Shown: piece by piece, positions 2,772 to 19,153 of the stretch
How positions within the stretch are numbered: position 1 is the stretch's first letter
How the letters are laid out: each line of letters starts with the position of its first letter
Virus record (IMG/VR): IMGVR_UViG_3300025695_000034
Span: 1 to 42,097 of that record
Source of the DNA: a virus
DNA: 42,097 bases
Direction: 5' to 3' (one strand)
Notes under the pieces: model-generated
Told to the model about the DNA's origin: nothing
Database searches by the model: none
What the model saw: only the letters and a program-made list of their open reading frames with translations
Program-made: the position numbers and the translations under genes

Positions 2772-3387
2772 CATATAAGCCCACCGGGGTTATATTAGAT
2801 ACATATACACAGCATTAAGATTAGTATTAATCATTGTTTAATGTATGTACAACAACCATTATCATAAGTGTAATGGGTGAACATATACTTATTAGTCTAT
2901 TATACTCCTGCATCTTCTGCGCTCTTCCTCCTCCCTTTAAAGACTTGGCGCAATTTCAGCGACTTCGCGCTAGAGGCGTAGGGTTGTTTAGTGGTTGACA
3001 ACTCAAAAATCCTCCAAAATGTTTAAGAATGTATATATATACTACCTACCCCCCTAGGCGACCTGCCCACCCCTATTAGTCTTGACAAAAGTCAAAGAAT
3101 TTATAAACGCATACACACACTGAATAGTCTGATTCATAGAATTTATATTGACGTGCTAGATTTTGGAACAAAATGAGTAGTAATTAATAGAATAAACTAC
3201 CAAAACTTATTAAGTTTCAGACACTTGGGTAATTATTTATTTTACACCCACCACCCACAAAAAAATTCTATATCCTGCGTGAGAAAAGCCCCGAAATTCC
3301 TGTACAAAAACTAGACAATTCCGCCAAAACAACCCCCCAAAACAAAAAAACAATACGTAGTATTGAAAAATAAATTGAAAAAAGTGT
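2772..3387 (+). other. Long intergenic control region without a convincing gene
   Basis: About 0.6 kb between the divergent promoters and the next promoter. Visible: a perfect inverted repeat TTGAC-AAAA-GTCAA at 3082-3095 that also looks like a -35 hexamer; another TTGACA at 2995-3000 without a good -10; a GC-richer island at roughly 2915-2985 inside AT-rich DNA; an AATAC-GTA-GTATT inverted repeat near 3352-3364; and an A/C-rich, G-poor stretch around 3310-3355. The strand bias and lack of genes fit an untranslated leader, a replication origin or a packaging site, but none of these is demonstrated. Confidence 0.5.
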
Positions 3388-3417
3388 TTGCAATGATTTT
3401 CGAATCGTGACTATAGT
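3388..3417 (+). promoter_or_regulatory. Promoter P1 for the first early gene block
   Basis: TTGCAA at 3388-3393 and TATAGT at 3412-3417 with an 18-base spacer. The predicted start is at about 3424, the beginning of a GGCATCG stem-loop also found behind promoters P2 (5253-5287) and P3 (9520-9548). Confidence 0.65.
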
Positions 3418-3422
3418 GGAAT

Positions 3423-3457
3423 GGCATCGAGGCAAGGGGCTTCGATTTCACTTTCAC
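3423..3457 (+). promoter_or_regulatory. 5' leader stem-loop of the P1 transcript
   Basis: ATCGAGGC (3426-3433) pairs with GCTTCGAT (3439-3446) through eight base pairs (one G-U) over a five-base loop. The first 13 bases (3423-3435) and the 19 bases from 3439 are identical to the P2 leader at 5288-5323, whereas the loop differs. Identity outside any shared coding sequence points to a functional RNA or DNA element at the transcript start. Confidence 0.65.
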
Positions 3458-3474
3458 AATTTGAGGTAACACTT

Positions 3475-4023
3475 ATGAATAATTTAAAAGCTTTTCAAAA
3501 CATCGACACAAACCGTCCTGCTTCTACGAAGCAATTATATCTAGTAGCCGGACATTTTGCTAAATTACATGGTAATTCTAAACTGTACAAAGTCTTTGGG
3601 GCAATCCTCCAAAAATTTAATGCGGAGCATTTAGAAACTCCAATTACGATGGGCGATGTTTCTAAGTTCTTAGAAATGCAAAAAGTTCCAGTCAAGTTTA
3701 CTAAACTTGTACAAAAACCAAAGACTAAAGCAAAACCTACGGTTTCTAAAGTACAAGTAAAACTTCAAGCACCGAAACCAAAGGTTTCTAAAGAAAAACC
3801 TACGGTTTCTAAAACTAAGGCTAAACCTACGGTTAAGGCTTCAGAGTTATCAGTCGAAGACTTTAAGAAAAGACTTGAGACTTTAGTCTCTAAAACCAAA
3901 CAACATGATGCTCAATTTATTGAGGCTGAAAAAAGAATGACTAGCCTTGAGGCTAAGTTTGATGCTATCTCGGCTCAATTTGAAGCTTTTCTAACAACTG
4001 ATGCGGATAAAGTAGACTATTAA
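3475..4023 (+). CDS. Early Lys-rich protein with KPTVSK repeats
   Basis: 182 residues; function not recognised. The start is the ATG at 3475, with TGAGGT eight bases upstream; the longer frame from 3421 would translate the conserved leader stem-loop and is rejected. Residues 1-80 look folded (TKQLYLVAGHFAKLHG, then LETPITMGDVSKFL). The middle is a basic linker in which K-P-T/K-V-S-K recurs four times, encoded by near-identical DNA with AAACC-N3-GGTTT inverted repeats. The C-terminus (SVEDFKKRLETLVSKTK onward) looks like a coiled coil. As the first gene behind a strong early promoter it may act on the host or on DNA, but this is inferred from position and charge only. Confidence 0.8.
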   Translation: MNNLKAFQNIDTNRPASTKQLYLVAGHFAKLHGNSKLYKVFGAILQKFNAEHLETPITMGDVSKFLEMQKVPVKFTKLVQKPKTKAKPTVSKVQVKLQAPKPKVSKEKPTVSKTKAKPTVKASELSVEDFKKRLETLVSKTKQHDAQFIEAEKRMTSLEAKFDAISAQFEAFLTTDADKVDY

Positions 4024-4080
4024 GTCTGCTTTTTCCCCTAAATTTTAATTAATTATTTATTATTCAAAGGAATATATATT

Positions 4081-4371
4081 ATGTTTAATCGTAGATTATT
4101 TACAACTCGTTTCAATCAAGCTACAAATACAACCGGTGAAAGTATTACAGTAATAATAAATAATATTACTGAAGAAGGTAAAAGACTGAGCCGTAAACAA
4201 AAAACAATTGCTTATAATTACAATCTTGATGCAATGGACAATCATCTCGAAGCAATTTACGAAGTAACGGATGAAGTACCAATACTAAGTAAGTTTAAAA
4301 ACTTAAAGCGAGGTTATCAATTCGTTGAGGTATCGGTCGAAGAGTCTGAAAATATAAACTTATATTTATAA
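4081..4371 (+). CDS. Small early protein, unknown function
   Basis: 96 residues, not recognised. It begins MFNRRLFTTRFNQ, behind AAAGGA about nine bases before the ATG, in the same direction as its neighbours. The product is mixed alpha/beta in appearance, basic at the N-terminus and acidic at the C-terminus (EVSVEESENINLYL), with no membrane segment or Cys motif. The codon composition is as AT-rich as the rest of the early block. Probably part of the P1 operon; a stem-loop follows the stop codon. Confidence 0.7.
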   Translation: MFNRRLFTTRFNQATNTTGESITVIINNITEEGKRLSRKQKTIAYNYNLDAMDNHLEAIYEVTDEVPILSKFKNLKRGYQFVEVSVEESENINLYL

Positions 4372-4378
4372 TAAACTA

Positions 4379-4398
4379 TCGGGGTTTAACCGCCCCGA
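4379..4398 (+). terminator. Intergenic stem-loop, weak terminator or processing site
   Basis: TCGGGG (4379-4384) pairs with CCCCGA (4393-4398) over an eight-base loop between two early genes. No U-run follows (AAAACC instead), so an efficient intrinsic terminator is unlikely; RNA processing or message protection is equally possible. Confidence 0.4.
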
Positions 4399-4419
4399 AA
4401 ACCTAAAGGAAAAATCATT

Positions 4420-4632
4420 ATGAAAAAACAATATACAAATAAATATTTAGACTATATGTTTGAAAAAGCTTGTGACAAAATAGGTTATCAGCATAACATT
4501 TCAATACTAGTATTGAGAACTAAAAAAGTAGGACGTTCAAAGGTTTATGCTTTAAGTACAGATAATAAATTCATGACTAGACACAAAATGATTGACCAAC
4601 TCGAAGAGTTAGTAGGAGAAACAAATGTATAA
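4420..4632 (+). CDS. Small early protein, unknown function
   Basis: 70 residues, not recognised. It starts MKKQYTNKYLDYMFEKACDK behind AAAGGAAAAATCATT. It is basic overall with a predicted helical N-terminus, a short beta-like middle (ISILVLRTKKVG) and an acidic end. Its last eight bases overlap the start of the next small gene at 4625, so the two are probably translationally coupled. Confidence 0.7.
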   Translation: MKKQYTNKYLDYMFEKACDKIGYQHNISILVLRTKKVGRSKVYALSTDNKFMTRHKMIDQLEELVGETNV

Positions 4633-4792
4633 TTCAGATTATTTTATAGACAATAACATCGAAGTATCAAAAGCCGAAATGCTCAAAGAATTATTTGACC
4701 ATGGCATCGAAGATGCACAAGAATTTTTCGAAATCTATGGCATAAAAGATACTTACAATTCTAAAGATATATTATTTTGGTTAGGTTATTAA
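4625..4792 (+). CDS. 55-residue acidic early protein
   Basis: A short gene read by hand: the ATG at 4625-4627 lies inside the end of the preceding gene, with GGAG at about the right distance. The product is MYNSDYFIDNNIEVSKAEML... ending FWLGY, strongly acidic, with repeated F/Y/I positions in a helix-like pattern (LFDHGIEDAQEFFEIYGIKD). Small acidic early phage proteins often inhibit host enzymes or mimic DNA, but nothing here identifies a target. The stop codon overlaps the AAGGAG of the following gene, so the spacing is compact. Confidence 0.65.
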   Translation: MYNSDYFIDNNIEVSKAEMLKELFDHGIEDAQEFFEIYGIKDTYNSKDILFWLGY

Positions 4793-4803
4793 GGAGAAAC
4801 ATC

Positions 4804-5172
4804 ATGTTAAAAGTATTTGTATACTACAATCTACACAAGTCTTGTTGGTCAATCAAAGCATTGGAAGGAGAACAAAAAGGTAAAGTAATTGAACATGCCG
4901 AACAAGTAATATTATTTGATGCTAAACCGAAGGTTTCGGAAGCCGGACGGCAACGTGTCCTTAAGGAACAATCTAAGAATGTCCATGCCGGAATAGTAGG
5001 AAACTTATTTTCAATAGACTCAAAAGTTTTTAAAACTAATGATAAAGACTTTAAAGAAATAACATACAACCCTTATAAGTATTCTACATTTGTTTATAAA
5101 GATAATGATGATAACCCTTTTAAGGGTTCAGATGTTGTTTACATGGCTAATAGAAGAGTCTTCGAGGTTTAA
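4804..5172 (+). CDS. Conserved phage protein, unknown function
   Basis: 122 residues from the ATG at 4804, preceded by AAGGAG at 4791-4796; an upstream in-frame ATG at 4777 lies inside the previous gene and is not used. The product contains FVYYNLHKSCWSIKALEG, KVSEAGRQRVL and SKNVHAGIVGNL, a pattern I recall from marine phage proteins of unknown function. It is probably a small beta-rich domain. The KPKVS segment is encoded by another AAACC-N3-GGTTT inverted repeat (4923-4935), as in the gene at 3475. Last gene before promoter P2. Confidence 0.75.
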   Translation: MLKVFVYYNLHKSCWSIKALEGEQKGKVIEHAEQVILFDAKPKVSEAGRQRVLKEQSKNVHAGIVGNLFSIDSKVFKTNDKDFKEITYNPYKYSTFVYKDNDDNPFKGSDVVYMANRRVFEV

Positions 5173-5252
5173 TAACAAAAAGGAATAAGAATATAATAAA
5201 AACACATATGCATCACACTCTATCACAATCGCATTATGCACAGGGATAGGGA

Positions 5253-5287
5253 TTGACAATTGCTCCGATTTGTGAGCATACTATAAA
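5253..5287 (+). promoter_or_regulatory. Promoter P2 for the second early gene block
   Basis: The -10 is TATAAA (5282-5287) or the overlapping TACTAT (5279-5284). The best-spaced -35 is TTGCTC (5260-5265, 16 bases to TATAAA); a perfect TTGACA at 5253-5258 is 20 bases from TACTAT. The layout parallels P1, and the same GGCATCGAGGCAA leader follows directly. Confidence 0.6.
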
Positions 5288-5323
5288 GGCATCGAGGCAA
5301 TGACGCTTCGATTTCACTTTCAC
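5288..5323 (+). promoter_or_regulatory. 5' leader stem-loop of the P2 transcript
   Basis: ATCGAGGC (5291-5298) pairs with GCTTCGAT (5305-5312) over a six-base loop. The first 13 and last 19 bases are identical to the P1 leader at 3423-3457. The unconstrained loop differs in length and sequence, which indicates selection on the stem and the flanking GGC and TTTCACTTTCAC. Confidence 0.65.
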
Positions 5324-5347
5324 TTAAACATTCAAAGGTATAAGCAA

Positions 5348-5950
5348 ATGTATAAGACACATGCCCCAATAATTAGTAAGCATGCTCAACAATCTGCTGA
5401 CAATCTAGCTGATGTTATCTTAATGGTAGTATTATCTATTCAGCAACCATGGCATTCAGTAGGTTCTCAAATGAAAGATGTTGCCCAACATAAAAAAGAT
5501 AGTAGATTTTTATGGGGCAATAAGAAAAAAACTTATAACTATTTATCTAAAAATAAAGGTAAAATGTTTGGTCAATTCAGGGCTATCATCAACAGCAGTA
5601 AAACTGACCATGAAAAATCAGTATCTCTTATGAAATTATTTATGCAAGTTGATGGACTTGGCGCAGTAAAAGCCGGATTTGTTTGCCAGTTAACTGCCGG
5701 ACTTGTAGGATGCATCGACCTCCACAATGTAAGAATGTATAGAATTGATGATAAAGTTTTAAAGATTTCTACTAAGATAAAATCTAAGGAACTTTACCAT
5801 AAAAAAATTGAAGACTATGTTGAGTTGTGTCACAACATTGGTACAGAAAAACTATGGGATAGTTGGTGCAACCACTTAGCTACCCAGAAAAATAGATTTA
5901 ATGATGCGATGGAAGTATCAAAAGCACATGTAGATTATTTGTTTGTGTAA
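5348..5950 (+). CDS. HhH-GPD-like DNA-glycosylase-fold protein
   Basis: 200 residues from the ATG at 5348 (AAAGG upstream); the longer frame from 5300 covers the leader stem-loop. Residues 102-131 (DGLGAVKAGFVCQLTAG, then GCIDLHNVRMY) match the helix-hairpin-helix plus Gly/Pro...Asp block of endonuclease III and OGG-type glycosylases: GLG hairpin, Asp124 at the catalytic aspartate position, and His126 as in the family's D-x-H. Lys108 is one position away from the usual Schiff-base lysine, so lyase activity is uncertain. No Fe-S cysteine cluster is seen. Known members excise damaged or modified bases; as an early phage gene this could act on modified host DNA, on repair, or simply as a DNA-binding fold. 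First gene behind P2. Confidence 0.6.
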   Translation: MYKTHAPIISKHAQQSADNLADVILMVVLSIQQPWHSVGSQMKDVAQHKKDSRFLWGNKKKTYNYLSKNKGKMFGQFRAIINSSKTDHEKSVSLMKLFMQVDGLGAVKAGFVCQLTAGLVGCIDLHNVRMYRIDDKVLKISTKIKSKELYHKKIEDYVELCHNIGTEKLWDSWCNHLATQKNRFNDAMEVSKAHVDYLFV

Positions 5951-6005
5951 AGTGAATGACAAGGATGTCGCCCCCTAATTTTTTAAAACCTAAAAGGTAA
6001 TTATT

Positions 6006-6953
6006 ATGAATAACGTTCAATCAATTTTCGGTAACAACAAACCTATTTTCGACGGCTATGGTCCGGCAGATTTCGACATTGAAACAGCGCCACTTAAGTA
6101 TCTATCAAAAGAAACACATAAAATTCTAACATCAACTAAACGAATTATATATCGTACTGATACTGGTGCTGAGCTTGGAGTCCATGGTAAACGATATGTT
6201 GCTGTCCCTCCTAAGCGTTTAATTGATACTAGCCGTAACATTATATTAAACTCGGACCTAAATACTTCAGGCTTAAAAGAAACTATACAAACTTCGCATA
6301 ATGGTTCACGAACTTTTGTTAAGTATGACTTACCGGAACATTCATATGTTACACCGGATGGTGATACAGCAACACTAAGTCTATTAAGTATAACTTCTTT
6401 CGATGGAACATGGGCTTTTATGATGAGTTGTGCAGCGACCCAGTATGCTTGTACTAACTTACAAGTATTTACTACAGGTGAAATTGCAGTATATAAAAGT
6501 AAACATACCCAAGGTTTAGACATTGCAAGAGGTTCAAAGATAATCATGAATAGTCTTAATGTTATGCAGAATGAAAATGAATTATGGCATAAATATTATA
6601 ACACTTCAATAAGAGATGTAGATGCATTTAATATTTTTGTTAAAGCATCTAAGGCTGAGAAGACTATTAATAAACTTAAAGAATTTTATGGTAGTAATTT
6701 ATCCATAGAAGAGTTATTATCTTTATCCCCAAGAGAAAATAAAGCATTAACATATATGTATAATATATATAAAGATACTTATAAGAAACGTTTAGGTGAT
6801 AATCTTTGGGCAGTATACAATGCAATGACTGATTGGAGTACACATGCTGAAGTCTCTAAGCGCTCAGAAAATAATATTGCTAGTGTTCAACACCAACGAC
6901 AACAGACTGTAAAAGATGTCGTCAACTCAGAACTACTAAGTTTAGTAGCTTAA
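6006..6953 (+). CDS. DUF932-like phage/plasmid protein
   Basis: 315 residues. It resembles the DUF932 (phage/plasmid-like) family, whose molecular role is not known; members are common on plasmids and phages and are often early genes. Supporting features are the N-terminal region leading to KYLSKETHKILTSTKRIIYR, the central SFDGTWAFMMSCAATQYACTN, where many members have a conserved Cys/Asn-containing recognition block, and the C-terminal LWAVYNAMTDWSTH typical of the family. The start follows AAAAGG. A weak stem-loop follows the stop. Confidence 0.75.
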   Translation: MNNVQSIFGNNKPIFDGYGPADFDIETAPLKYLSKETHKILTSTKRIIYRTDTGAELGVHGKRYVAVPPKRLIDTSRNIILNSDLNTSGLKETIQTSHNGSRTFVKYDLPEHSYVTPDGDTATLSLLSITSFDGTWAFMMSCAATQYACTNLQVFTTGEIAVYKSKHTQGLDIARGSKIIMNSLNVMQNENELWHKYYNTSIRDVDAFNIFVKASKAEKTINKLKEFYGSNLSIEELLSLSPRENKALTYMYNIYKDTYKKRLGDNLWAVYNAMTDWSTHAEVSKRSENNIASVQHQRQQTVKDVVNSELLSLVA

Positions 6954-6968
6954 ATTTTAAACAATAAT

Positions 6969-6990
6969 AGGGGGCTTCATGCTCCCTTCT
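6969..6990 (+). terminator. Weak stem-loop after the DUF932 gene
   Basis: AGGGGGC (6969-6975) pairs with GCTCCCT (6981-6987) over TTCAT, seven pairs with one G-U. Only a short U-rich tail (TCTT) follows. It may attenuate or process the transcript rather than end it. Confidence 0.4.
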
Positions 6991-7000
6991 TGGAGAACAT

Positions 7001-7201
7001 ATGACATTTACTTTTTTAAATAAGTTTGTAACACTAAGTTTTAGAAATGGTTTTGGTTTTGATATTGAAGCTTGTGATAGTCGCCCAGTATTTGTACTTG
7101 AAGATGATGAAATACTACCCTCTTGTTTTAACGGTATTATATTTTTAATTCCTTTTGTTGTTGTAAGTATTGGTACTGTGTTTGTGTTGGAGGATGAATG
7201 A
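7001..7201 (+). CDS. Small membrane protein, unknown function
   Basis: 66 residues, not recognised. It starts MTFTFLNKFVTLSF behind GGAG. The C-terminal half has a hydrophobic segment of about 20 residues (IIFLIPFVVVSIGTVFVL) ending in EDE, consistent with a single membrane helix with a short acidic tail. FVLEDDE and FVLEDE occur twice, before and at the end of the helix. It overlaps the next gene by four bases. Confidence 0.6.
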   Translation: MTFTFLNKFVTLSFRNGFGFDIEACDSRPVFVLEDDEILPSCFNGIIFLIPFVVVSIGTVFVLEDE

Positions 7202-7431
7202 TGATTAGATATATTAAAAATAAAACAACAGGGCGTACCGATAAAGAGTATGCCATGTACAGTGGTTCAAAGGCAGGTTATATGTTCAACCCTCTAAAGG
7301 ATGGACAAGTTTTAATCCATAAAGGTTTACCTTCTTTTAACACTGCAGTAGTAGAAGATATAAAAAGTTTAAAAGCTCAGCGACTTGCTGAAGCAATGTA
7401 CTATCAGCGCAACACCACTCGATTCGATTAA
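7198..7431 (+). CDS. Small early protein, unknown function
   Basis: 77 residues (76 if the second of two adjacent ATGs at 7201 is used), with GGAGG closely upstream. Basic product: MMIRYIKNKTTGRTDKEYAM..., beta-like in the first half, then a helix with a KSLKAQRLAEAMYYQR pattern. No domain recognised. It overlaps the upstream membrane protein by four bases, indicating coupled translation. Confidence 0.65.
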   Translation: MMIRYIKNKTTGRTDKEYAMYSGSKAGYMFNPLKDGQVLIHKGLPSFNTAVVEDIKSLKAQRLAEAMYYQRNTTRFD

Positions 7432-7442
7432 GGATAAAGACA

Positions 7443-7898
7443 ATGATTAAATATAACTTAGAAAGATTAGCAGTTGAAGCAATCATAAATGATGGTACTT
7501 ACAATAGTGATGAAGATTGGTGGACAAGTTTCACTACTGATGAAGGTAAGGTTTATGATGTAAATGTATATCATCCAGACCCTGCCCTTAGTTATGTAAG
7601 AATAACAATCTATAATTGTATCGCTTCAATGGACGGTACTAATTGGGTAACAGACACAGAAAGTGAAGCAGGATTTATAGAAATACCTAAGTCTATTATC
7701 ATGCCTGATGAAAGAGTAAACACTTATGATGTCACCTTCCAAGTTGTAACAGAGTATACCATTAAAACTGATGCCTCGGGACATGCTGAAGCTTTACTTA
7801 AAGTTAAAGAGATGAAGGAGAAACATGACTTAATAGCGCGTGGAGTATTCAAAGATATTAATGTAGTTGTCACATCATCTAAAGAAGTTAAGGAATAA
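7443..7898 (+). CDS. Early protein, unknown function
   Basis: 151 residues, not recognised. ATG follows AAGGAT. Acidic, with aromatic clusters near the start (NSDEDWWTSFTTDEGKVYDV) and a likely beta-sheet body; the C-terminal 50 residues (YTIKTDASGHAEALLKVKEM) resemble the beta-alpha arrangement of small helper domains seen in several phage proteins. It is spaced two bases from the next gene, so it is part of the same operon. Confidence 0.65.
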   Translation: MIKYNLERLAVEAIINDGTYNSDEDWWTSFTTDEGKVYDVNVYHPDPALSYVRITIYNCIASMDGTNWVTDTESEAGFIEIPKSIIMPDERVNTYDVTFQVVTEYTIKTDASGHAEALLKVKEMKEKHDLIARGVFKDINVVVTSSKEVKE

Positions 7899-7900
7899 TC

Positions 7901-8095
7901 ATGAGCCAGAAAATAAAAGCAATACATAGATGCGTAGAGTATTTAACTGAGCAAGGTTATTACGGAGACTTCAATATGTTATTTGCGACCAACGGAAAGA
8001 ATACTGCTGAGTATCTTTGCGAACGCTTCACCACTTCTAATGGAGGTGAAGTATTAGATAGTGATTATGATATTGTTAAAGAATGGTTGGAGTAA
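7901..8095 (+). CDS. Small early protein, unknown function
   Basis: 64 residues, behind AAGGAA. Product MSQKIKAIHRCVEYLTEQGY..., one probable helix followed by YLCERFTTSNGGEVLDSDYD and a helical end. Two cysteines (residues 11 and 41) are too far apart to suggest a metal site. Not recognised. Confidence 0.6.
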   Translation: MSQKIKAIHRCVEYLTEQGYYGDFNMLFATNGKNTAEYLCERFTTSNGGEVLDSDYDIVKEWLE

Positions 8096-8100
8096 TTAGG

Positions 8101-8265
8101 ATGACTAAAGAAGAAGAAATTAATGAGCGCGTAGAGTTACTTAAAGCATGGGCATATGGAGCAGAGATAGAAGTATATGATGCCGCGCTAGAAGAATGGC
8201 GTGACCTTAACGGCACAGGTTTCCACCATGAACTTAAGTATCGACTAAAAGATAAGGAGAAATAA
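8101..8265 (+). CDS. Small acidic early protein, unknown function
   Basis: 54 residues from the ATG at 8101 with GGAG upstream; an earlier in-frame ATG at 8083 lies inside the previous gene and is less likely. The product starts MTKEEEINERVELLKAWAYG and then has EVYDAALEEWRDLNG and FHHELKYRLKDKE, a pattern seen in small phage proteins with a beta-hairpin describing an ordered argument list (a W-x-D-L turn). Function unknown. Confidence 0.6.
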   Translation: MTKEEEINERVELLKAWAYGAEIEVYDAALEEWRDLNGTGFHHELKYRLKDKEK

Positions 8266-8266
8266 C

Positions 8267-8344
8267 TTGGATTCATTATCATTTACGTTTATATTATTTA
8301 TAATATGTGTAGTCATTTGGTTTATTTATGAGGATAGAACATGA
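8267..8344 (+). CDS. 25-residue single-helix membrane microprotein (TTG start)
   Basis: A tiny gene read by hand. TTG at 8267-8269 is preceded by AAGGAG at ideal spacing. The product is MDSLSFTFILFIICVVIWFIYEDRT, essentially one membrane helix with a short charged end. Its TGA overlaps the ATG of the next gene as ATGA, the classic coupling arrangement. Without the Shine-Dalgarno and the exact overlap it would be dismissed as noise. A role at the inner membrane early in infection is possible, target unknown. Confidence 0.55.
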   Translation: MDSLSFTFILFIICVVIWFIYEDRT

Positions 8345-8724
8345 AAGAATTATATGAAATTAGTTTTACTTGGGGCATTGATAATGTGTTAGACGTAAGG
8401 GCTGACTTAACCTACGACGAAGCATACCAAGTACTATTATCTTTGAAGGATAACTTCACTCGAGAAGAAGGTATATGTGACAACACTATACTCGAGCTAA
8501 GCTACGAGCTTTTCCCTGAAGATAGAGAGATGGAGCTTCAGAAGTTTAGGGTTCGTGTTGGAAGACGAGACGTTAAACAATGTATGGTAGAGATGGAAGC
8601 CTACACAGAAAATGAAGCAACAAAACTTGTAGAAGAAATGATAAAGCGTGGAGAGTTTCACAACAAAACATTCACCACTACAGCAATAACAAATGAATTT
8701 ATATTCGATGTGTCACCAACATGA
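8341..8724 (+). CDS. Early acidic protein, unknown function
   Basis: 127 residues, not recognised. It begins at the ATGA shared with the preceding microprotein and ends at an ATGA shared with the next. Acidic and largely alpha/beta: FTWGIDNVLDVRADLTYDEA, a middle with FRVRVGRRDVKQCMV, then YTENEATKLVEEMIKRGEF. The second half looks like a strand-helix repeat of the first, hinting at an internally duplicated small domain. Confidence 0.65.
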   Translation: MKELYEISFTWGIDNVLDVRADLTYDEAYQVLLSLKDNFTREEGICDNTILELSYELFPEDREMELQKFRVRVGRRDVKQCMVEMEAYTENEATKLVEEMIKRGEFHNKTFTTTAITNEFIFDVSPT

Positions 8725-8801
8725 ATATAATAATTGGATTAGTTGTTTGCGCTTTACTCGCAGTTGTAATAGAATATATTTTTAAAAGGTTTAACTTATG
8801 A
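8721..8801 (+). CDS. 26-residue single-helix membrane microprotein
   Basis: A tiny gene read by hand: ATG at 8721 overlapping the previous stop (ATGA) and TGA overlapping the next ATG at 8798 (ATGA). The product is a hydrophobic helix (MNIIIGLVVCALLAVVIEYI) followed by FKRFNL, a typical N-out/C-in topology with a basic cytoplasmic end. It is the second such microprotein within 500 bases. Tight overlaps on both sides support translation by coupling. Confidence 0.55.
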   Translation: MNIIIGLVVCALLAVVIEYIFKRFNL

Positions 8802-9286
8802 ATAGCTTTGAAAAATGCAGAGCCATCGAAGAAGAAAGTAACAAAAAAGTATTTGAGTTTTTAAATAAACGTTATGATTTTGTTATACATACCGATGACT
8901 TTAGAAATAATTTAACATATCAAACTTATTATGGAGATTACTTAGCAGTTAAAAGAGATAAGAAACTTTTCATTGAAGTAAAAGCAGAAGTAAAAAACAG
9001 ATATAATAATTTTTACTTAGAAACATGGAGTAATAAACCAACAAACTTAGGATGGTTTAGAAAATGTAAGGCTGATGTTATTCTTTATCACTTCTTAGAA
9101 GATGATACAATATATATGTTTGACTTAAAGAAAGCTCAAGAATATATTGAAGAGCATCCAGATAAGTACAATGAAAAACCACAGAGCAAATACTCTCAAA
9201 AGAATAAAGCTTATGGACTTTGCGTATCCATTACTGATATAATGAACCACGCAGGTATTACTACTATTAACTTAACGGAGAAATAA
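8798..9286 (+). CDS. PD-(D/E)XK nuclease-like protein
   Basis: 162 residues. The core GDYLAVKRDKKLFIEVKAE has Asp47 followed 13 residues later by Glu60-x-Lys62, on adjacent strands as expected for the PD-(D/E)XK nuclease fold; a preceding helix (KCRAIEEESNKKVFEFLNK) carries acidic residues that could be the first motif. Aromatic-rich NLGWFRKCKADVILYHF would form the next strand and helix. Such small phage nucleases resolve or degrade DNA, but the substrate cannot be read from sequence. It overlaps the membrane microprotein upstream and is two bases from the next gene. Confidence 0.6.
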   Translation: MNSFEKCRAIEEESNKKVFEFLNKRYDFVIHTDDFRNNLTYQTYYGDYLAVKRDKKLFIEVKAEVKNRYNNFYLETWSNKPTNLGWFRKCKADVILYHFLEDDTIYMFDLKKAQEYIEEHPDKYNEKPQSKYSQKNKAYGLCVSITDIMNHAGITTINLTEK

Positions 9287-9287
9287 A

Positions 9288-9530
9288 ATGGATTCATTCC
9301 TAGAATTTAAAAACCCTTACAACATTTACATTGCACGTAATATGATTACAAGTGTTAAACAACATGGCACTAATATTCTTATCTCAACTAGCGATGGAGG
9401 TGTTCATAAAATAAACGAAAAAGATTATACGCTTAATGATGTAATGAAGATGTGTGTGCCTACAGCCAAGAGCGCAAGCACATCAACACCCACTAAGAGT
9501 AAGGCGACAAAAAAATCGCTTGACAACTAA
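9288..9530 (+). CDS. Small early protein, unknown function
   Basis: 80 residues behind GGAG. The first 55 look like a small beta-rich domain (NMITSVKQHGTNILISTSDG with HKINEKDYTLNDVM); the last 25 are Ser/Thr/Lys-rich and probably disordered (KSASTSTPTKSKATKKSLDN). The -35 element of promoter P3 lies within its final codons. Not recognised. Confidence 0.65.
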   Translation: MDSFLEFKNPYNIYIARNMITSVKQHGTNILISTSDGGVHKINEKDYTLNDVMKMCVPTAKSASTSTPTKSKATKKSLDN

Positions 9531-9548
9531 CGAAACATCCTGTAATCT
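9520..9548 (+). promoter_or_regulatory. Promoter P3 for the replication genes
   Basis: TTGACA (9520-9525) and TAATCT (9543-9548), 17-base spacer. The predicted start near 9555 falls on the GGCATCG leader. The -35 overlaps the end of the preceding coding sequence. Confidence 0.6.
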
Positions 9549-9553
9549 GTATA

Positions 9554-9583
9554 GGCATCGGTGGGGTAACGACCTCATCGGTG
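9554..9583 (+). promoter_or_regulatory. 5' leader stem-loop of the P3 transcript
   Basis: It begins GGCATCG like the P1 and P2 leaders. GGTGGGGT (9560-9567) pairs with ACCTCATC (9572-9579) over AACG, eight pairs with two G-U. The stem sequence differs from P1 and P2, so what is shared is the 5' GGCATCG and the presence of a stem-loop at the start site. CATCGGTG is directly repeated at 9556-9563 and 9576-9583. Confidence 0.55.
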
Positions 9584-9620
9584 TAACTAAATCATCAACA
9601 CTATTTAGAGGTAATATATT

Positions 9621-10040
9621 ATGCCAGTTATTCAAGGTAAAGCATTTTGGGCTTCAGTCACTCAGCCTAACACAACGTACGACCCAGTATATTCTGTTAA
9701 CTTAGTCGTAGACGAAGACACTGCAGAGCAGTTCCGCAACGATGGCTACACTGTTAAAGATATGGAAGAAGGTCCTGCGTTAGTAATCAAGCGTAAGGTG
9801 AATGGTCCTAACGATATGGTACGCCAAGCACCTAAGCTTATGGACAAAGCAAAGAATGAGATTGATACTCTTGTCGGCAATGGTTCATTAGTTAAGGTAC
9901 AGTACAAGCCTTGGGAATCACAGTGGAAAGGTAAGACCTTCAAAGGTTTAGACTTCCAAGCAATGCAAGTATTAGACTTGATTAAGTATCAGGTAGCTGA
10001 CGGTGAAGAGTTTGACTCGGAGGACGAAGACGAGCTATGA
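9621..10040 (+). CDS. ssb: Single-stranded DNA-binding protein, T7 gp2.5-like
   Basis: 139 residues behind AGAGGT. It coats single-stranded DNA at the fork and recruits polymerase and helicase. It has an OB-fold-like beta pattern (VIQGKAFWASVTQPNTTYDP, then YSVNLVVDE and SLVKVQYKPWES) and ends in a strongly acidic tail (EEFDSEDEDEL), the protein-interaction tail of gp2.5-type SSBs. First gene behind P3 and followed, after one small gene, by an intrinsic terminator, so it is probably made at higher levels than the replisome genes. It overlaps the next gene by four bases. Confidence 0.85.
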   Translation: MPVIQGKAFWASVTQPNTTYDPVYSVNLVVDEDTAEQFRNDGYTVKDMEEGPALVIKRKVNGPNDMVRQAPKLMDKAKNEIDTLVGNGSLVKVQYKPWESQWKGKTFKGLDFQAMQVLDLIKYQVADGEEFDSEDEDEL

Positions 10041-10237
10041 TATACAATCATCAAGAAAAGCAATATGATATTGAAAAGCTAGGGGAGGAGGGCAAACGTG
10101 CCTTCCAACTCTTAGCCTTAGCAGAAGAAAAGTTTACTGATGCAGGTAACGAGTATGTAATTGCTCAAGCATCGACAGTAGCCTTACATTCTAAGCTTCA
10201 AGAATTATTGACTGAAGACGCTTTAATCCAAGAATAA
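10037..10237 (+). CDS. Small acidic helical protein downstream of ssb
   Basis: 66 residues, coupled to ssb by an ATGA overlap. After a short beta-like start (MIYNHQEKQYDIEKLGEE) the rest is a long helix of heptad character (KRAFQLLALAEEKF...). Small proteins of this shape next to replication genes are frequent in marine phages, mostly without known function. A structural or accessory role with SSB is possible but unsupported. Confidence 0.7.
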   Translation: MIYNHQEKQYDIEKLGEEGKRAFQLLALAEEKFTDAGNEYVIAQASTVALHSKLQELLTEDALIQE

Positions 10238-10259
10238 TCTTGTGTATTTTAGTAAATCC

Positions 10260-10287
10260 AAGGGAGCTTTTTAGTTCCCTTTTTTAT
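10260..10287 (+). terminator. Intrinsic terminator between ssb and primase genes
   Basis: AAGGGAGC (10260-10267) pairs with GTTCCCTT (10274-10281), eight pairs with one G-U, loop TTTTTA, followed by TTTTTT. No promoter is seen between it and the primase start at 10310, so it probably acts partially, as an attenuator. Confidence 0.8.
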
Positions 10288-10309
10288 ACCCAACAAAAAG
10301 GAACATGAT

Positions 10310-11965
10310 ATGTCTTTTGTAAAATACAAATTACCTTGCCCACAATGTGGAGGCAGTGACCCAGTATCAATGAACGATGATGGTTCAGCTTATTGTTTCA
10401 GTTGCCAGACATTCATGCGTGACTATGAAAAAGAAATGAATGGAGAAGTAGACTACAGCAGACCTGCTAAAGAAATTAAAAAGACTACTACCCACATTCA
10501 GACAGGTGAATATTATCCTTTATCTGATAGAGGTATATCCCTTAACACAGCCAAGAAGTATGGTGTTAAATCTGTTCGCAATCACAATGGTGATATTGTT
10601 GAACATGCCTATCCTTATTTTATTAATCATGAGAATGTAGCAAGCAAGGTACGTAAACAAGATAAGACTTTCAGTTGGACCTCACCACCTAAAGGTACTG
10701 GCTTATTTGGTCAGCAGTTATTCCAATCAGGCGGTAAGTATTTAACTATTGTTGAGGGTGAATGTGATGCAATGGCAGCATATGAAATGCTCGGCAGTAA
10801 GTGGGCTGTTGTTTCCATTAAGAATGGAGCGGCAGGTGCAGACAAAGACATCAAAGAAAACTTAGAATATGTAGAGTCATTTGAAAATGTAGTGATTTGT
10901 TTCGACAAAGACAAAGCAGGTACAGATGCATCATTGAAGGTAGCAAGACTATTACGCCCCGGCAAAGCTAAGATTCTTAATCTTCCCAATGGTTTCAAAG
11001 ATGCTAACGATATGCTACGTAAGGCACAGCATAAAGAATTTGTACAGAACTGGTGGAACGCAGAGTTATATACCCCATCAGGTGTACTAAGTGTTACTGC
11101 AAGCAAAGAAAAATATAAGAGCAGAGAGAAGAAAGAAAGCATACCTTATCCTTGGGCAGGGCTTAACGCAAAGCTAGAAGGCTTACGCCTTGGAGAGTTA
11201 GTTACCCTTACTGGTGGTACAGGACTTGGTAAGAGTTCAATCACAAGAGAGTTAGAACACTGGCTTATAAAAGAAACTAAAGATAATGTAGGTGTCATTG
11301 CGTTAGAAGAAAACTGGCAACGTACCATTGATGGCATCCTAAGTATTGAATCTAATTCTAAGATGCATCTCGATTCAGTACGCAGTGAGATGTCTGAAGA
11401 AGAAATTGATAAGCATTACTATAATGTATTTGAGGGCGAGAACGAAGGACGTGTTTGGGTTCACTCTCACCTTGGCGTTAACGATATAGATAGTATCTTC
11501 AGCAAGCTACGCTTTATGATTATTGGTTGTGATTGTAAATGGATTGTGGTTGACCACTTACATATGTTAGTTCTTAGTGCCTTAGAATCTGATGAGCGAA
11601 AAGCTATTGATAATATTATGCACCGACTTCGTACCCTTGTTGAAGAGACAGGCTGTGGAATGATTCTTGTTTCTCACTTACGTCGTGTCGATGGCAACAA
11701 AGGACATGAGAATGGTATCGAGACAGGCTTATCTCACTTACGTGGTTCTCAGTCTATCGCTCAGCTAAGTGATTGTGTTATTGGTCTTGAAAGAAATCAG
11801 CAGTCTGATGACCCAATTGAGGCTTCCACTACCAAGGTTCGTGTGTTAAAATCTAGATATACTGGTGACGTTGGAGTAGCAACACACCTTCTTTATGATA
11901 AACATACAGGTAGACTAGATGAGACACTACCAGAAGAGGATAACTTTTTTGAGGATGAATTATGA
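10310..11965 (+). CDS. T7 gp4-like primase-helicase
   Basis: 551 residues. Makes RNA primers and unwinds the fork as a ring hexamer. The N-terminal zinc ribbon has C-P-Q-C near residues 10-13 and C-F-S-C near 29-32; the TOPRIM primase core has VEGECDA (about 149-154) and FDKDKAG (about 199); the helicase has Walker A GGTGLGKS (about 302-309) and Walker B WIVVDHLHM (about 412), with HLRR and the SHLRGSQSI loop after it. Length and order match T7 gp4 (566). The last four bases overlap the polymerase start. Confidence 0.95.
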   Translation: MSFVKYKLPCPQCGGSDPVSMNDDGSAYCFSCQTFMRDYEKEMNGEVDYSRPAKEIKKTTTHIQTGEYYPLSDRGISLNTAKKYGVKSVRNHNGDIVEHAYPYFINHENVASKVRKQDKTFSWTSPPKGTGLFGQQLFQSGGKYLTIVEGECDAMAAYEMLGSKWAVVSIKNGAAGADKDIKENLEYVESFENVVICFDKDKAGTDASLKVARLLRPGKAKILNLPNGFKDANDMLRKAQHKEFVQNWWNAELYTPSGVLSVTASKEKYKSREKKESIPYPWAGLNAKLEGLRLGELVTLTGGTGLGKSSITRELEHWLIKETKDNVGVIALEENWQRTIDGILSIESNSKMHLDSVRSEMSEEEIDKHYYNVFEGENEGRVWVHSHLGVNDIDSIFSKLRFMIIGCDCKWIVVDHLHMLVLSALESDERKAIDNIMHRLRTLVEETGCGMILVSHLRRVDGNKGHENGIETGLSHLRGSQSIAQLSDCVIGLERNQQSDDPIEASTTKVRVLKSRYTGDVGVATHLLYDKHTGRLDETLPEEDNFFEDEL

Positions 11966-13722
11966 AAAGCTTAGTGTTTGATATAGAAGCGAATGGATTT
12001 AATCCTGATGTTATTTTTTGTATTGTAATTGTAGATGTGGATACAGGAGAAACTTATGAGTACGACCCACAACAAATTGATGAAGCTGTGGCGCACCTTC
12101 AAACTGCGGATAAGCTTATCGGTCACAATATTATCGGCTACGATTTACCTGTCATACATAAAATCAAAGGTGTGGATTTATCAGAGCATGCCAAAGTTTT
12201 AGACACACTTGTTCTTAGTAGATTATTTAATCCCACTCGAGAGGGTGGTCATAGTCTTGATGCTTGGGGTCAGAAGCTTGGGTACAATAAGATTAAGTAT
12301 GATAACTTTGAATACTTTGAGCCAGAGATGATGACTTATTGTGTTCGTGATACTAAGCTTAATGCAAAAGTATTTAAATGTTTGCGCCAAGAAGCAAGAG
12401 GTTTCTCTAAGCAATCAATAGAATTAGAGCATGGTGTATATAGTATTATCCAAGAACAGATACGCAATGGGTTTAAGCTTAATGTCCCTTATGCTATGGA
12501 GCTTGTGGCAGAGATAACTGCAGAGCTAGTTGCTGTTGAGTCTGAAGTACATCTAACATTTAAACCTGTTGTAACTAAGACTAAGATTGAACCTTCTTAT
12601 ACTAAGATAGGTGCGCTTTCAAAGATGGGTAAGATAGCCGGACAAACAAAACGTGTACGCCTCAGCGATGAAGAGTATACAATGTTGCAAAACCCTAAAG
12701 AAAAGTATATTATACGTACAGAGTCTACGCCTTTTAATCTTGGAAGTCGGAAGCAAATCGGAGAGTATCTTGTACGCTTCGGTTGGAAACCGGTTAAGCT
12801 AACACCAACTGGTCAGCCGATTGTTGATGAAAGCACATTAGAAAAGGTTAAGAATATACCGGAGGCTCAGTTGATTGCTAAGTATCTTATGTTACAGAAA
12901 CGTGTAGCACAGATTAAATCTTGGTTAGAGTCAACGAAAAGTAACGATAGAGTATATGGTTATGTTAATAGCAATGGTGCAGTGACCGGTCGAATGACAC
13001 ACAGCGAACCTAACATGGCTCAGATACCTTCAAGTAATTCACCTTATGGTAAAGAGTGTCGCAGTTGTTGGACAGTCGAAGACAATAAGAGACTTGTAGG
13101 TATTGATGCTTCAGGACTAGAGCTACGTATGCTTGCACACTATATGAATGACGAGGAATACACTCATGAAATTCTCAACGGAGACATACACACAGCTAAC
13201 CAAAAAGCTGCGGGACTTGAATCTAGAAATCAGGCTAAGACTTTCATCTATGCCTTCTTATACGGAGCGGGAGATGCAAAAATTGGGTCAATCTCTGGAG
13301 GAAACAGAGCGACAGGTCGAAGACTTAAACAACGTTTTCTTACTAATACGCCATCACTTGCAACACTTAAAGATAGAGTATCAAGAGCGAGCAAGAAGGG
13401 GTGGCTTAAAGGATTAGACGGACGTAAACTATTTGTGCGCTCAGAACATTCAGCGTTAAATACTTTACTTCAAGGTGCAGGTGCAATCGTTATGAAAGAA
13501 GCACTTGTTATTTTAAACAAAAAGATTATTGCTTCTGGTGTTGATGCTAAGTTCGTTGCTAATGTACACGACGAATGGCAGATAGAAACCTCAGATAAAG
13601 ATGCTGATACAGTAGGTCAGTTAGGCATTGATGCAATCGTAGAAGCAGGACAGAATCTTAATATGCGTTGTCCATTAGACGGAGACTACAATGTCGGATA
13701 CAACTGGTCAGAAACACACTAA
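11962..13722 (+). CDS. Family A DNA polymerase, T7-like
   Basis: 586 residues, no 5'-3' nuclease domain. The 3'-5' exonuclease has DIE at residues 7-9, a second motif GHNIIGYDLP and the YCVRD third motif. The polymerase has motif A GIDASGLELRM (about 379-389), motif B starting at Arg422 with Lys426 and Tyr430 (RNQAKTFIYAFLYG) and motif C VHDEW (about 535). Tyr430 is at the position of E. coli PolA Phe762 and T7 Tyr526. It is shorter than T7 gp5 (704), so the thioredoxin-binding insertion is reduced or absent; the processivity partner is not visible. The gene ends 32 bases inside the next one. Confidence 0.95.
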   Translation: MKSLVFDIEANGFNPDVIFCIVIVDVDTGETYEYDPQQIDEAVAHLQTADKLIGHNIIGYDLPVIHKIKGVDLSEHAKVLDTLVLSRLFNPTREGGHSLDAWGQKLGYNKIKYDNFEYFEPEMMTYCVRDTKLNAKVFKCLRQEARGFSKQSIELEHGVYSIIQEQIRNGFKLNVPYAMELVAEITAELVAVESEVHLTFKPVVTKTKIEPSYTKIGALSKMGKIAGQTKRVRLSDEEYTMLQNPKEKYIIRTESTPFNLGSRKQIGEYLVRFGWKPVKLTPTGQPIVDESTLEKVKNIPEAQLIAKYLMLQKRVAQIKSWLESTKSNDRVYGYVNSNGAVTGRMTHSEPNMAQIPSSNSPYGKECRSCWTVEDNKRLVGIDASGLELRMLAHYMNDEEYTHEILNGDIHTANQKAAGLESRNQAKTFIYAFLYGAGDAKIGSISGGNRATGRRLKQRFLTNTPSLATLKDRVSRASKKGWLKGLDGRKLFVRSEHSALNTLLQGAGAIVMKEALVILNKKIIASGVDAKFVANVHDEWQIETSDKDADTVGQLGIDAIVEAGQNLNMRCPLDGDYNVGYNWSETH

Positions 13723-14572
13723 GAGTTTAGATACTCTTATCACAGATATATATTCTAGCCTTGAAGGTTTGTCGCATGGCGAACCTCTTAACATATCTGA
13801 GGCTGAATTAGATAAAACATTAGAGGGCATTAGAGAATGTCTTCTACATTGGTCACAACCCTCCAAGCGAAACAAAGAATTCAATCTAAGAATGTCTAAT
13901 GTTGGGCGTCCTGCTCGACTGCTTTGGTTCGAAAAGAACGCAGAAGAACGCACACCTCCCTCTCCTTCCACTCAAATTAAATTCTTATATGGTCATCTAC
14001 TAGAAGAGATTCTACTTATGCTTGTGCGCATGAGCGGACACAATGTTTCAGGCGAACAAGGTGAAGCAAAGGTTGAAGGTATTACAGGACATATGGATTG
14101 TATTATCGACGGCGAAGTAGTAGACATTAAGACAGCCTCTAAGTTTGCATTTAATAAGTTCCGCAATGGAACACTACCACAAGATGATAGCTTCGGATAC
14201 CTTGCACAGCTTGCTGCCTATGAACACTCAACAGGCACAGAGAATGGAGGCTTCCTTGTTATCAATAAAGAGTCAGGTGAGTTATGTTTATATCGTCCTG
14301 ATGATTTAGATAAACCTAACATCACACAAAGAATTAAAACTATGAAAGAACAAGTCTTTGGTGATGATATGCCTGAACCTTGTTATGAACCTGAAGCACA
14401 TGGCACTAAAGGAAACATGAAGTTACCTAAGGGTTGTACTTGGTGTAGCTTTAAACATGAATGCTATAAAGATTCAAATGATGGTGAAGGCTTAAGAACA
14501 TTTAAATATTCTAATGGTTATATTTATTTAACGAAAGTTGTTTCAGAACCTAACGTAGAGGAAATACTATGA
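13691..14572 (+). CDS. PD-(D/E)XK exonuclease with Cas4-like cysteines
   Basis: 293 residues; start ATG at 13691 behind GGAG, so the first 32 bases lie inside the polymerase gene. The nuclease core has GH-x2-E (101-105), Asp136 in GHMDCIIDG and Asp145-x-Lys147 (VVDIKTAS), the RecB/Cas4-type PD-(D/E)XK pattern. A cysteine near the N-terminus (Cys50) plus Cys249, Cys252 and Cys258 (GCTWCSFKHEC) give the one-plus-three arrangement that binds an iron-sulfur cluster in Cas4 and AddB. It may fill the role of the T7 gp6 exonuclease, in recombination or host DNA breakdown. The Fe-S cluster is inferred. Confidence 0.8.
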   Translation: MSDTTGQKHTKSLDTLITDIYSSLEGLSHGEPLNISEAELDKTLEGIRECLLHWSQPSKRNKEFNLRMSNVGRPARLLWFEKNAEERTPPSPSTQIKFLYGHLLEEILLMLVRMSGHNVSGEQGEAKVEGITGHMDCIIDGEVVDIKTASKFAFNKFRNGTLPQDDSFGYLAQLAAYEHSTGTENGGFLVINKESGELCLYRPDDLDKPNITQRIKTMKEQVFGDDMPEPCYEPEAHGTKGNMKLPKGCTWCSFKHECYKDSNDGEGLRTFKYSNGYIYLTKVVSEPNVEEIL

Positions 14573-14874
14573 ACGAAAAAACCATGAAGGCAATAAGCCA
14601 CCATACAAATATTATTCTTGTTGAATGGCTTAAGACTTTAGTAAGTGAAGAAGAAGCTTTAAAGATTAATAAGTATAATCTTGATGAACTATTGCCTAAA
14701 CAAACACACATTAGAGCTAACAATAAAGTAATGCTTAGTGCTTTCTCTCGTAAGTGGGTTAGAAAACATTTAAAAAATATTGTTAAGAAGAATCCAAGTA
14801 AGCCTATATATACTATTAAGCTGACTGATGTTATGAAAGAGAGTACAACATGGCAGAACGCACCGACAATTTAA
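14569..14874 (+). CDS. Small basic protein, unknown function
   Basis: 101 residues, overlapping the exonuclease stop by four bases (ATGA). Basic and helical: ISHHTNIILVEWLKTLVSEE, NKVMLSAFSRKWVRKHLKNI. No domain recognised. Its end overlaps the start of the next small gene by 25 bases. Confidence 0.65.
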   Translation: MNEKTMKAISHHTNIILVEWLKTLVSEEEALKINKYNLDELLPKQTHIRANNKVMLSAFSRKWVRKHLKNIVKKNPSKPIYTIKLTDVMKESTTWQNAPTI

Positions 14875-15017
14875 AAGATTTAAAAGAACTTGTTTATCTT
14901 TTAGAGAAACATATAAGAGACATTGATAAACAAGATGATATTATTAATGATATTATTTTTAACATGTATCTCTTAATTACAATTGAAGAGTTAGATATAA
15001 AACAAGGAGAGTTCTAA
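14850..15017 (+). CDS. 55-residue coiled-coil protein
   Basis: A short gene read by hand: ATG at 14850 inside the preceding gene, stop TAA at 15015-15017 sharing its last base with the ATG of the endonuclease gene. The product MAERTDNLKDLKELVYLLEK continues with HIRDIDKQDDIINDIIFN, an acidic amphipathic helix with heptad spacing. The AAGGAG for the endonuclease lies in its last codons. The reading frame is open and matches the compact overlap style of this operon, but no function is recognised. Confidence 0.6.
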   Translation: MAERTDNLKDLKELVYLLEKHIRDIDKQDDIINDIIFNMYLLITIEELDIKQGEF

Positions 15018-15487
15018 TGTCTAATCCAAAGATTAGGAAAGGATTTAGAAAGCCTAGAGTTAAACGCCCAAGAGAAAAGAATCTTGAGTCAGGTTATGAT
15101 TCTAAGTGGGAGTATGAGTTACATACAGGACCACTTAAAGATTGGGAGATACACTTAGATAAGATTGAGTATACTATTCATCATACTTATACACCTGATT
15201 TTGTACGTGAATTAGATGGAAAGAAAATCTTATTAGAAGCTAAAGGAAGATTCTGGGATAGCGCAGAGTACAGTAAATACATTTGGATTTCTAAGGCATT
15301 GCCTGATGGTTATGAATTAGTCTTCTTGTTTGCTAACCCCAATGCTCCTATGCCTCAAGCAAAGAAAAGAAAAGATGGAACAAAGCGTTCTCATTCTGAA
15401 TGGGCTGAAGCTAATAACTTTAAATGGTATGATGAAACAACACTACCTAATGAGTGGGTATCTAAAAACAAAGACGACCTCCTCTGA
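15017..15487 (+). CDS. Endonuclease I, T7 gp3-like (Holliday junction resolvase)
   Basis: 156 residues; T7 gp3 is 149. It cleaves branched DNA and helps break down host DNA and resolve concatemers before packaging. The catalytic set of T7 endonuclease I (E20, D55, E65, K67) is visible as Glu32 or Glu34 in SKWEYE, Asp61 in YTPDF, Glu74 and Lys76 in LLEAKGRF. The aromatic-rich W-I-S-K and F-L-F-A-N-P segments match the fold. Start follows AAGGAG. Sits next to the exonuclease, as in T7 where gp3 and gp6 act together. Confidence 0.9.
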   Translation: MSNPKIRKGFRKPRVKRPREKNLESGYDSKWEYELHTGPLKDWEIHLDKIEYTIHHTYTPDFVRELDGKKILLEAKGRFWDSAEYSKYIWISKALPDGYELVFLFANPNAPMPQAKKRKDGTKRSHSEWAEANNFKWYDETTLPNEWVSKNKDDLL

Positions 15488-15502
15488 CCAGTTAGTTATC
15501 GT

Positions 15503-15531
15503 TTGTAATTGTTGTGTTGTTGTTTTAATAT
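15503..15531 (+). promoter_or_regulatory. Possible promoter before the nucleotide-metabolism block
   Basis: TTGTAA (15503-15508) and TAATAT (15526-15531), 17-base spacer, in the only gap of this stretch. The -35 is weak and no GGCATCG leader follows. Confidence 0.35.
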
Positions 15532-15557
15532 AGAGGTTCAAATCAAGTGGAGGTGTT

Positions 15558-15803
15558 ATGACAAAAGAAGAATCAGTTATTGCAGCAATACAAGCATACT
15601 ATGGTTACAAGGTAGAGGCAGCATTTCACAAATCTATTTATGATTCAGAATGCTCAGGACGTATATATGAAAATAGTTTTTATAAATACAAGAAGAGCCT
15701 TGATAACAAAAAAGAAATGTATGAGTACATTATTTCTAACTTTAAAAAAGAAATTGATTCTGTTACCAACACAACCTTAGACAGAATACAGGAGATATAC
15801 TAA
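15558..15803 (+). CDS. Small protein, unknown function
   Basis: 81 residues behind GGAGG. Lys/Glu-rich and helical (NKKEMYEYIISNFKKEIDS), with an aromatic N-terminal half (AIQAYYGYKVEAAFHKS). Its TAA overlaps the next ATG (TAATG), so the two are probably coupled. Not recognised. Confidence 0.65.
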   Translation: MTKEESVIAAIQAYYGYKVEAAFHKSIYDSECSGRIYENSFYKYKKSLDNKKEMYEYIISNFKKEIDSVTNTTLDRIQEIY

Positions 15804-16204
15804 TGGAACATTATGATACTATCTATAAGAGTTCAAAAGAAATGGAAGAACACTTAAAAGAAATTGCTGAAAATCGCAATAGTAGAAACAAAGAGTGGGA
15901 ACAATACGTAGCAACAGCAGACCTTAAGGATGCTCTTGAAGAACGTATGGATATTATAGGACAGAATGGGAATGATGGTTTGCACTACGACCAGAGAGAG
16001 TTTCCTAATGAAACATGTCCTGACCACTACAATCTACCTATACAACCTTGGGAATATATGGAAAGCATTATGTCTGAAGAAGCATTCCAAGGTTATCTTG
16101 AAGGAAACATTATTAAATACATTAGTCGTTGGCGCAACAAAGGCGGCTTAAATGATTTAAGAAAAGCTGAACATTATTTAAACAAACTCATTAGCATTAA
16201 TTAG
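15803..16204 (+). CDS. DUF3310 protein (T7 gp1.7-type)
   Basis: 133 residues. The C-terminal 65 carry the DUF3310 signature: PDHYNLPIQPWEYMESIM, then YLEGNIIKYISRWRNKGG and DLRKAEHYLNKLI. The family occurs in many phages, including T7 gp1.7, a nucleotide kinase whose C-terminal part has this domain. The N-terminal 65 residues are a charged helical extension (MEEHLKEIAENRNSRNKEWE). The position ahead of ribonucleotide reductase fits a role in nucleotide supply, but catalytic residues are not clear. Confidence 0.8.
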   Translation: MEHYDTIYKSSKEMEEHLKEIAENRNSRNKEWEQYVATADLKDALEERMDIIGQNGNDGLHYDQREFPNETCPDHYNLPIQPWEYMESIMSEEAFQGYLEGNIIKYISRWRNKGGLNDLRKAEHYLNKLISIN

Positions 16205-16213
16205 GAAACACTG

Positions 16214-17962: not shown

Positions 17963-17971
17963 GGAATAATT

Positions 17972-19142: not shown

Positions 19143-19153
19143 GGTATTAAATA

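Follow-up and report, generated by a model that had tools for sequence, protein, structure and literature searches.

Early genes and promoters of an uncultured marine phage

The window, 42,097 nucleotides of DNA, is an IMG/VR record of an uncultured marine phage (IMGVR_UViG_3300025695_000034). Its early genes occupy positions 3475 to 20104 of the + strand, and the structural genes and terminase lie on the − strand. A scan of 20 window proteins revealed no RNA polymerase, which presumably leaves early transcription to the host enzyme; a phage RNA-polymerase promoter (T7-like CTATAGG) was dropped from consideration for the same reason. Neither gene 1 nor the DUF932 gene led to a cultured phage of the lineage.

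Two early genes concern us here. Gene 1 (3475–4023, +) encodes a 182-residue protein with a helical N-terminal domain, a Lys-rich linker and a C-terminal coiled coil; its AlphaFold model is confident for the N-terminal domain and disordered in the linker, and the protein gave no convincing Pfam, PHROG or fold match. ORF 5348 (5348–5950, +; 200 residues) yielded a confident helical model (pLDDT 92.7) whose best fold matches are HhH DNA glycosylases (OGG1, endonuclease III and MUTYH), none of them significant, and its product contains an HhH-GPD-like stretch, VDGLGAVKAGFVCQ...GCIDLHN. Structure models and fold searches revealed no recognisable RNA-binding fold in either protein.

Each gene is preceded by a putative sigma70-type promoter. 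P1 (3388–3417, +) reads TTGCAA-18-TATAGT and matches 9 of 12 consensus positions, with sequences such as TTGACA-17-TAGCTT at the homologous position of relatives; P2 (5253–5282, +), which would drive ORF 5348, reads TTGACA-18-CATACT (10 of 12). Both are consensus matches only, in a region where 44 were found against 33 expected. Upstream of P2 lies a block containing GCATTATGC (5217–5252, +) that is kept in alignments of relatives' P2. A perfect dyad, CAATACGTAGTATTG (3351–3365), lies upstream of P1, where some relatives carry GCATAATGC.

An initial annotation of this DNA had described a stem-loop leader shared by P1 and P2, starting at the predicted transcription start and lying in untranslated DNA. 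Our consensus scan agrees that both leaders begin at predicted starts, although the −10 element of P2 is ambiguous (CATACT or TACTAT) and its start is therefore fixed only to about 2–3 bases. The shared blocks are indeed untranslated: comparison with homologues places the start codons of both genes beyond them, at 3475 and 5348. The in-frame ATGs upstream of these, at 3421 and 5300, put the block in different frames; because the frames differ and the homologues' starts lie downstream, a protein-coding explanation was rejected.

Farther upstream, between 2676 and 2774, the P0 (+) and terS (−) promoters diverge, both of them perfect TTGACA-17-TATAAT. They form 42-nt inverted arms at 83% and have ATACGACTGTATAATA in common; the P0 and terS promoters of relatives likewise share sequence (e.g. 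AATATCGCAGTATAATAGA), which changes together between phages. The P0 region (2742–2791, +) includes its own 5' hairpin, AAGCCCACCGGGGTT (2777–2791), which opens the predicted transcript and is kept, with a variable loop, in about 14 relatives. Roughly 600–1000 nt of mostly non-coding DNA separate this hairpin from the first gene. Within that gap, a GC-rich block (GGCNACCTGCCC) near a C or G run, at about 3050–3080 in the window and also in L101, L104, L106, L109 and L132 (relatives are designated by L and a number), is possibly a packaging or origin site. At 2673–2680 (−), terS appears leaderless: in the window, as in many relatives, its ATG stands where transcription is predicted to begin.

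Two leaders share sequence and predicted fold

GGCATCGAGGCAA and GCTTCGATTTCACTTTCAC each occur exactly twice in the window, at 3423–3457 (+) behind P1 and at 5288–5323 (+) behind P2. As first annotated, the two copies are identical at 13 of 13 and 19 of 19 bases flanking a variable loop. All differences (3 columns) fall within that loop, which reads AAGGG at P1 and AATGAC at P2; such confinement has a probability of 0.003 if the 3 columns are taken as independent, and of 0.045 for any 6-column run. With as many as 3 mismatches allowed, 0.01 occurrences of the 19-base block are expected by chance in the window. Taken alone with 3 mismatches, the 13-base block is not significant (8 seen versus 5.5 expected); significance comes from its two exact copies, each beside the 19-mer, and only 1 of 3000 random pairs of 60-base stretches shared a run of at least 13 bases. 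The repeat continues weakly upstream into the promoter spacer (CGAATCGTGA / CGATTTGTGA; 35-base copies at 77%).

Both leaders open with GGC, followed at P1 by stem arms at 3426–3433 and 3439–3446 around the loop (3434–3438), and at P2 by arms at 5291–5298 and 5305–5312 around the loop (5299–5304). Each ends in the tail TTTCACTTTCAC, whose opening T doubles as the final base of the stem; the predicted transcripts thus begin GGC-AUCGAGGC-loop-GCUUCGAU-UUCACUUUCAC. The annotated pairing of ATCGAGGC with GCTTCGAT was recovered in both copies as the minimum free energy (MFE) and the centroid structure. It comprises 8 pairs, one of them G.U, and two weak outer pairs bring in the initial base of GGC. 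Compared with shuffles, both copies are the more stable (z −3.5 to −4.7), with 2–3 nt, or a weakly paired 5' base, ahead of the stem if transcription begins at the consensus-predicted site. Neither Shine-Dalgarno (SD) sequence lies inside the shared hairpin; a weak second pairing predicted by RNAfold takes in P1 SD bases (GAGG) and bases beside the P2 SD.

Several known element types were compared with the leaders. Rfam gave no match at gathering score in the window and 7 relatives, and nothing up to E=1 overlapped the two leaders. Intrinsic terminators and attenuators have a GC-rich stem followed directly by a U-tract; the hairpin passes a loose terminator scan, its tail is UUUCACUUUCAC, and the tails in relatives are mostly not U-tracts. 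A CsrA-type site was rejected because GGA is absent from the loop. In the collections scanned, the exact leader is limited to one species; contigs from other samples with more than 99.6% identity have the same leaders. Pattern scans of viral contigs otherwise returned only chance matches in long ORFs, scans of genome contigs gave two matches, both by chance and in ORFs, and BLAST gave none in cultured phages.

Relatives keep a hairpin at P1

Relatives were collected through homologues of gene 1 (about 21–44% identity) and of ORF 5348. This is the right comparison; the promoter ahead of phrog_1221/DUF932 is the wrong one, and relatives found through that gene have no such leader just upstream of it. 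In 22 of the 22 relatives with a placeable gene-1 promoter, the predicted transcript opens with a hairpin, although these phages are interrelated and the count is not one of independent events. The leaders are 45–61 nt long, and their hairpins have MFE values of −6 to −13 kcal/mol, several of which do not outperform shuffles (z −0.4 to −1.4).

The sequence of these hairpins has turned over. The stem is AAAWCGGC..GCTGWTTT in L221, L227, L229, L231 and L236; nGCC..GGCn in L217, L218, L238, L243 and others; GCAGC..GTTGC in L256, L258 and L259; and GGCTGGC..GCCAGC in L266 and L267. L274 has TCAGCGAGA..TCTTGCTGA, every pair of which is retained in L273 through G-U changes; G-U-preserving changes are also present in L242, L243 and L267, and one pair is broken in each of L256, L246 and L275. 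Other relatives (L216, L219, L228, L239, L249, L251 and L264) have giant near-perfect hairpins of about 15–30 bp upstream of gene 1 instead, several of them with the apex TCAYTTRTGA.

The compensatory changes for which the initial annotation had looked to relatives are present at P1. L221 and L227, whose leaders are otherwise nearly identical, differ by one clean two-sided U-A/A-U change. When the window is aligned with L221 and L227 by the apex, GGC-loop-GCU is common, 32 of 32 cells are paired and 4 of 8 pairs have changed on both sides, the last and strongest count coming from four sequences hand-trimmed to their hairpins, which leans towards structure; when entire leaders are aligned by plain MAFFT, the window falls elsewhere. 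The covariation score of the apex-anchored alignment was reached by none of 500 shuffles, slid versions scored far lower, and with three more sequences added, in a likewise hand-trimmed alignment, 96% of cells pair. The nGCC group alone gave no significant covariation.

A hairpin leader tied to gene 1 across relatives could be an autogenous operator, at which the basic, coiled-coil gene 1 product binds its own leader and, in this species, that of P2 as well. The translational operator of T4 gp43, a hairpin in the leader of its own gene whose apex is conserved, offers a precedent (PMC3014915), and the apex GGCANTGACGCT is nearly alike in the window's P2 and in L227 and L236. However, the loop of the window's P1 lacks this apex, the ribosome site is far from the hairpin rather than overlapping it as in the gp43 operator, and gene 1 has no recognisable RNA-binding fold. 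We consider such autoregulation very improbable.

In several relatives P2 shares start sequence with P1

Several ORF 5348 homologues have a promoter directly upstream, with a block (TCACAA..GCATWATGCacAGGGA..TTGACA) that matches the window's P2; P2 itself is therefore old. In many other relatives no recognisable promoter lies ahead of the homologue. In L092, L101 and L238, P2 and the P1 of that phage have 23, 21 and 17 identical bases in common, respectively, over a span from −12 to about +10, and L144 and L246 have 9 bases common to the two promoters. These P2 leaders are 24–26 nt long and essentially unfolded. Conservation of pairing, by which the initial annotation had proposed to judge the stem, thus holds at P1 and fails at P2 in most relatives; with only −12 to about +10 shared there, the common element is not always a hairpin. 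In L239, giant hairpins with a near-identical 34-base apex stand ahead of both genes, at −70 and −69.

Sharing of start sequences between the same two genes thus recurs, the shared part being a start-site motif, a small hairpin or a giant one. A hairpin at both promoters is confined to this species and to L239, which represents an independent lineage. In addition, a palindrome-like sequence, TTATAACnGTTATAA, lies between promoter and start codon of phrog_1221 or the ORF 5348 homologue in L102, L117, L154 and L163; L154 has it in both places, and it may be an operator.

The P2 data of relatives are the main evidence against a general function of the hairpin at both promoters, and they leave room for control of initiation at the DNA level or for functionless gene conversion. 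The former is the main rival to the reading we prefer: a shared initial transcribed sequence would set promoter escape or bind a co-regulator of P1 and P2, the hairpin being secondary. Relatives' P1 and P2 share GTAGCTTKGAAAACGTCAAA over the −10 element and start, with no hairpin at P2, and part of this motif (TTTGAAAACGTCAAA in L101) is a dyad. GCATWATGC dyads lie upstream of several P2s and several P1s, and the P0 and terS promoters also share sequence around −10. At T5 N25, promoter escape is strongly affected by the initial transcribed sequence (PMC12464699), and the early promoters of L092 and L101 resemble this case in sharing sequence just past the −10 and start. In the window, however, the shared part extends to +36, keeping the stem and a +25 to +36 tail that lie past most escape effects. 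The half-site spacing is 5 in one copy and 6 in the other, the stem as DNA contains a G.T mismatch, and pairing survives at the RNA level in relatives' P1 hairpins, where the sense strand has G-U changes. On balance, we judge DNA-level control unlikely, if still a serious competitor.

Somewhat more doubtful is the proposal that a trans-acting factor reads a 5' element specific to these two promoters, with lineages swapping the whole element at both together as the partners co-evolve. Alternatively, recent recombination may have spread the P1 leader to P2, where it would do nothing. The shared tracts are lineage-specific, as from gene conversion (+1 to +36 in the window, −12 to +10 in L092 and L101, the giant hairpin in L239), yet the window's copies differ only in the loop, with every other aligned position identical, and sharing between the same two genes recurs in independent lineages. 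We consider a purely neutral copy improbable.

A candidate stabilising hairpin at the 5' end of early transcripts

Paired RNA elements behind early promoters also recall antitermination. In phage HK022, putL and putR place related RNA elements behind two early promoters, each put RNA being an element of about 70 nt with two stem-loops (PMC9378689). A similar nascent-RNA element, loading an antitermination or anti-pausing complex at both P1 and P2, would suit the long early gene block (to 20 kb) and the lack of an RNA polymerase among the proteins scanned. Here, by contrast, a single 8-bp stem lies in a shared block of 35–36 nt instead of two long stems, and the two promoters, some 1.9 kb apart, lie on one strand in the same orientation, which would make P2 redundant.

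Lambda-type nut sites combine boxA (CGCTCTTA-like), a boxB hairpin and an N-type protein. The boxA core CGCTCTTA occurs in neither leader, which also lack an Rfam match, and a resemblance of CACTTTCAC(AATTT) to boxA was dropped as too short and degenerate. Lambda N is a small arginine-rich peptide, unlike the 182-residue, Lys-rich gene 1 product with its long coiled coil. An antitermination role is, to our minds, less probable even than a neutral copy.

The reading we prefer, at a probability of roughly 45%, is that the leader forms a 5'-terminal mRNA-stabilising hairpin on a host RNA polymerase transcript and was copied from P1 to P2. Of the two roles proposed in the initial annotation, protection of the 5' end and a site for a factor, protection is the better supported; the hairpin's place at the predicted 5' end, with the ribosome site outside it, fits that role. 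RppH and RNase E require single-stranded ends, which is why structure at the 5' end stabilises mRNA (PMC3997798), and T4 gene 32 is a precedent, as cited in PMC8948821. In the class of ompA and T4 gene 32, a stable stem-loop has few unpaired 5' bases, the ribosome-binding site is unpaired downstream, and half-life is prolonged, also on transfer. The leaders resemble those of ompA and papA of E. coli and of T4 gene 32 in their predicted extreme 5' position, spacer and external ribosome site; they differ in that two copies stand behind two promoters of one phage, in the full turnover of sequence between relatives, and in that stabilisation is a proposal here. An RNA hairpin would tolerate loops of 5 (P1) and 6 (P2) bases, and we count in favour of a stabiliser that the P0 transcript of the same phage also opens with a hairpin kept across relatives.

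According to this stabiliser model, P1 and P2 would be host-type (sigma70) early promoters whose transcripts carry the stem-loop within about 3 nt of their start, followed by an unstructured, G-poor spacer and then by a ribosome-binding site outside the shared hairpin. By blocking 5'-end-dependent decay in the host (RppH, followed by RNase E), the stem-loop would lengthen the life of the two early mRNAs. We infer that the ancestral home of the hairpin leader was the first early gene, at P1, and that in this species it was copied onto P2, probably by recombination, after which the stems and tail would have been retained while the loop drifted. Exact retention of the tail TTTCACTTTCAC is not explained by a pure stabiliser.

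Overall, the leader has the look of a genuine, rapidly changing control element whose likeliest role is to protect or regulate the message. It connects a repeat in untranslated DNA with an arrangement that recurs in this phage lineage, in which the transcripts of two early genes start alike while the start element itself changes between phages. If functional, these elements would offer a natural set of exchangeable 5' leaders with which to study message survival or co-regulation in hosts never cultured together with these phages.
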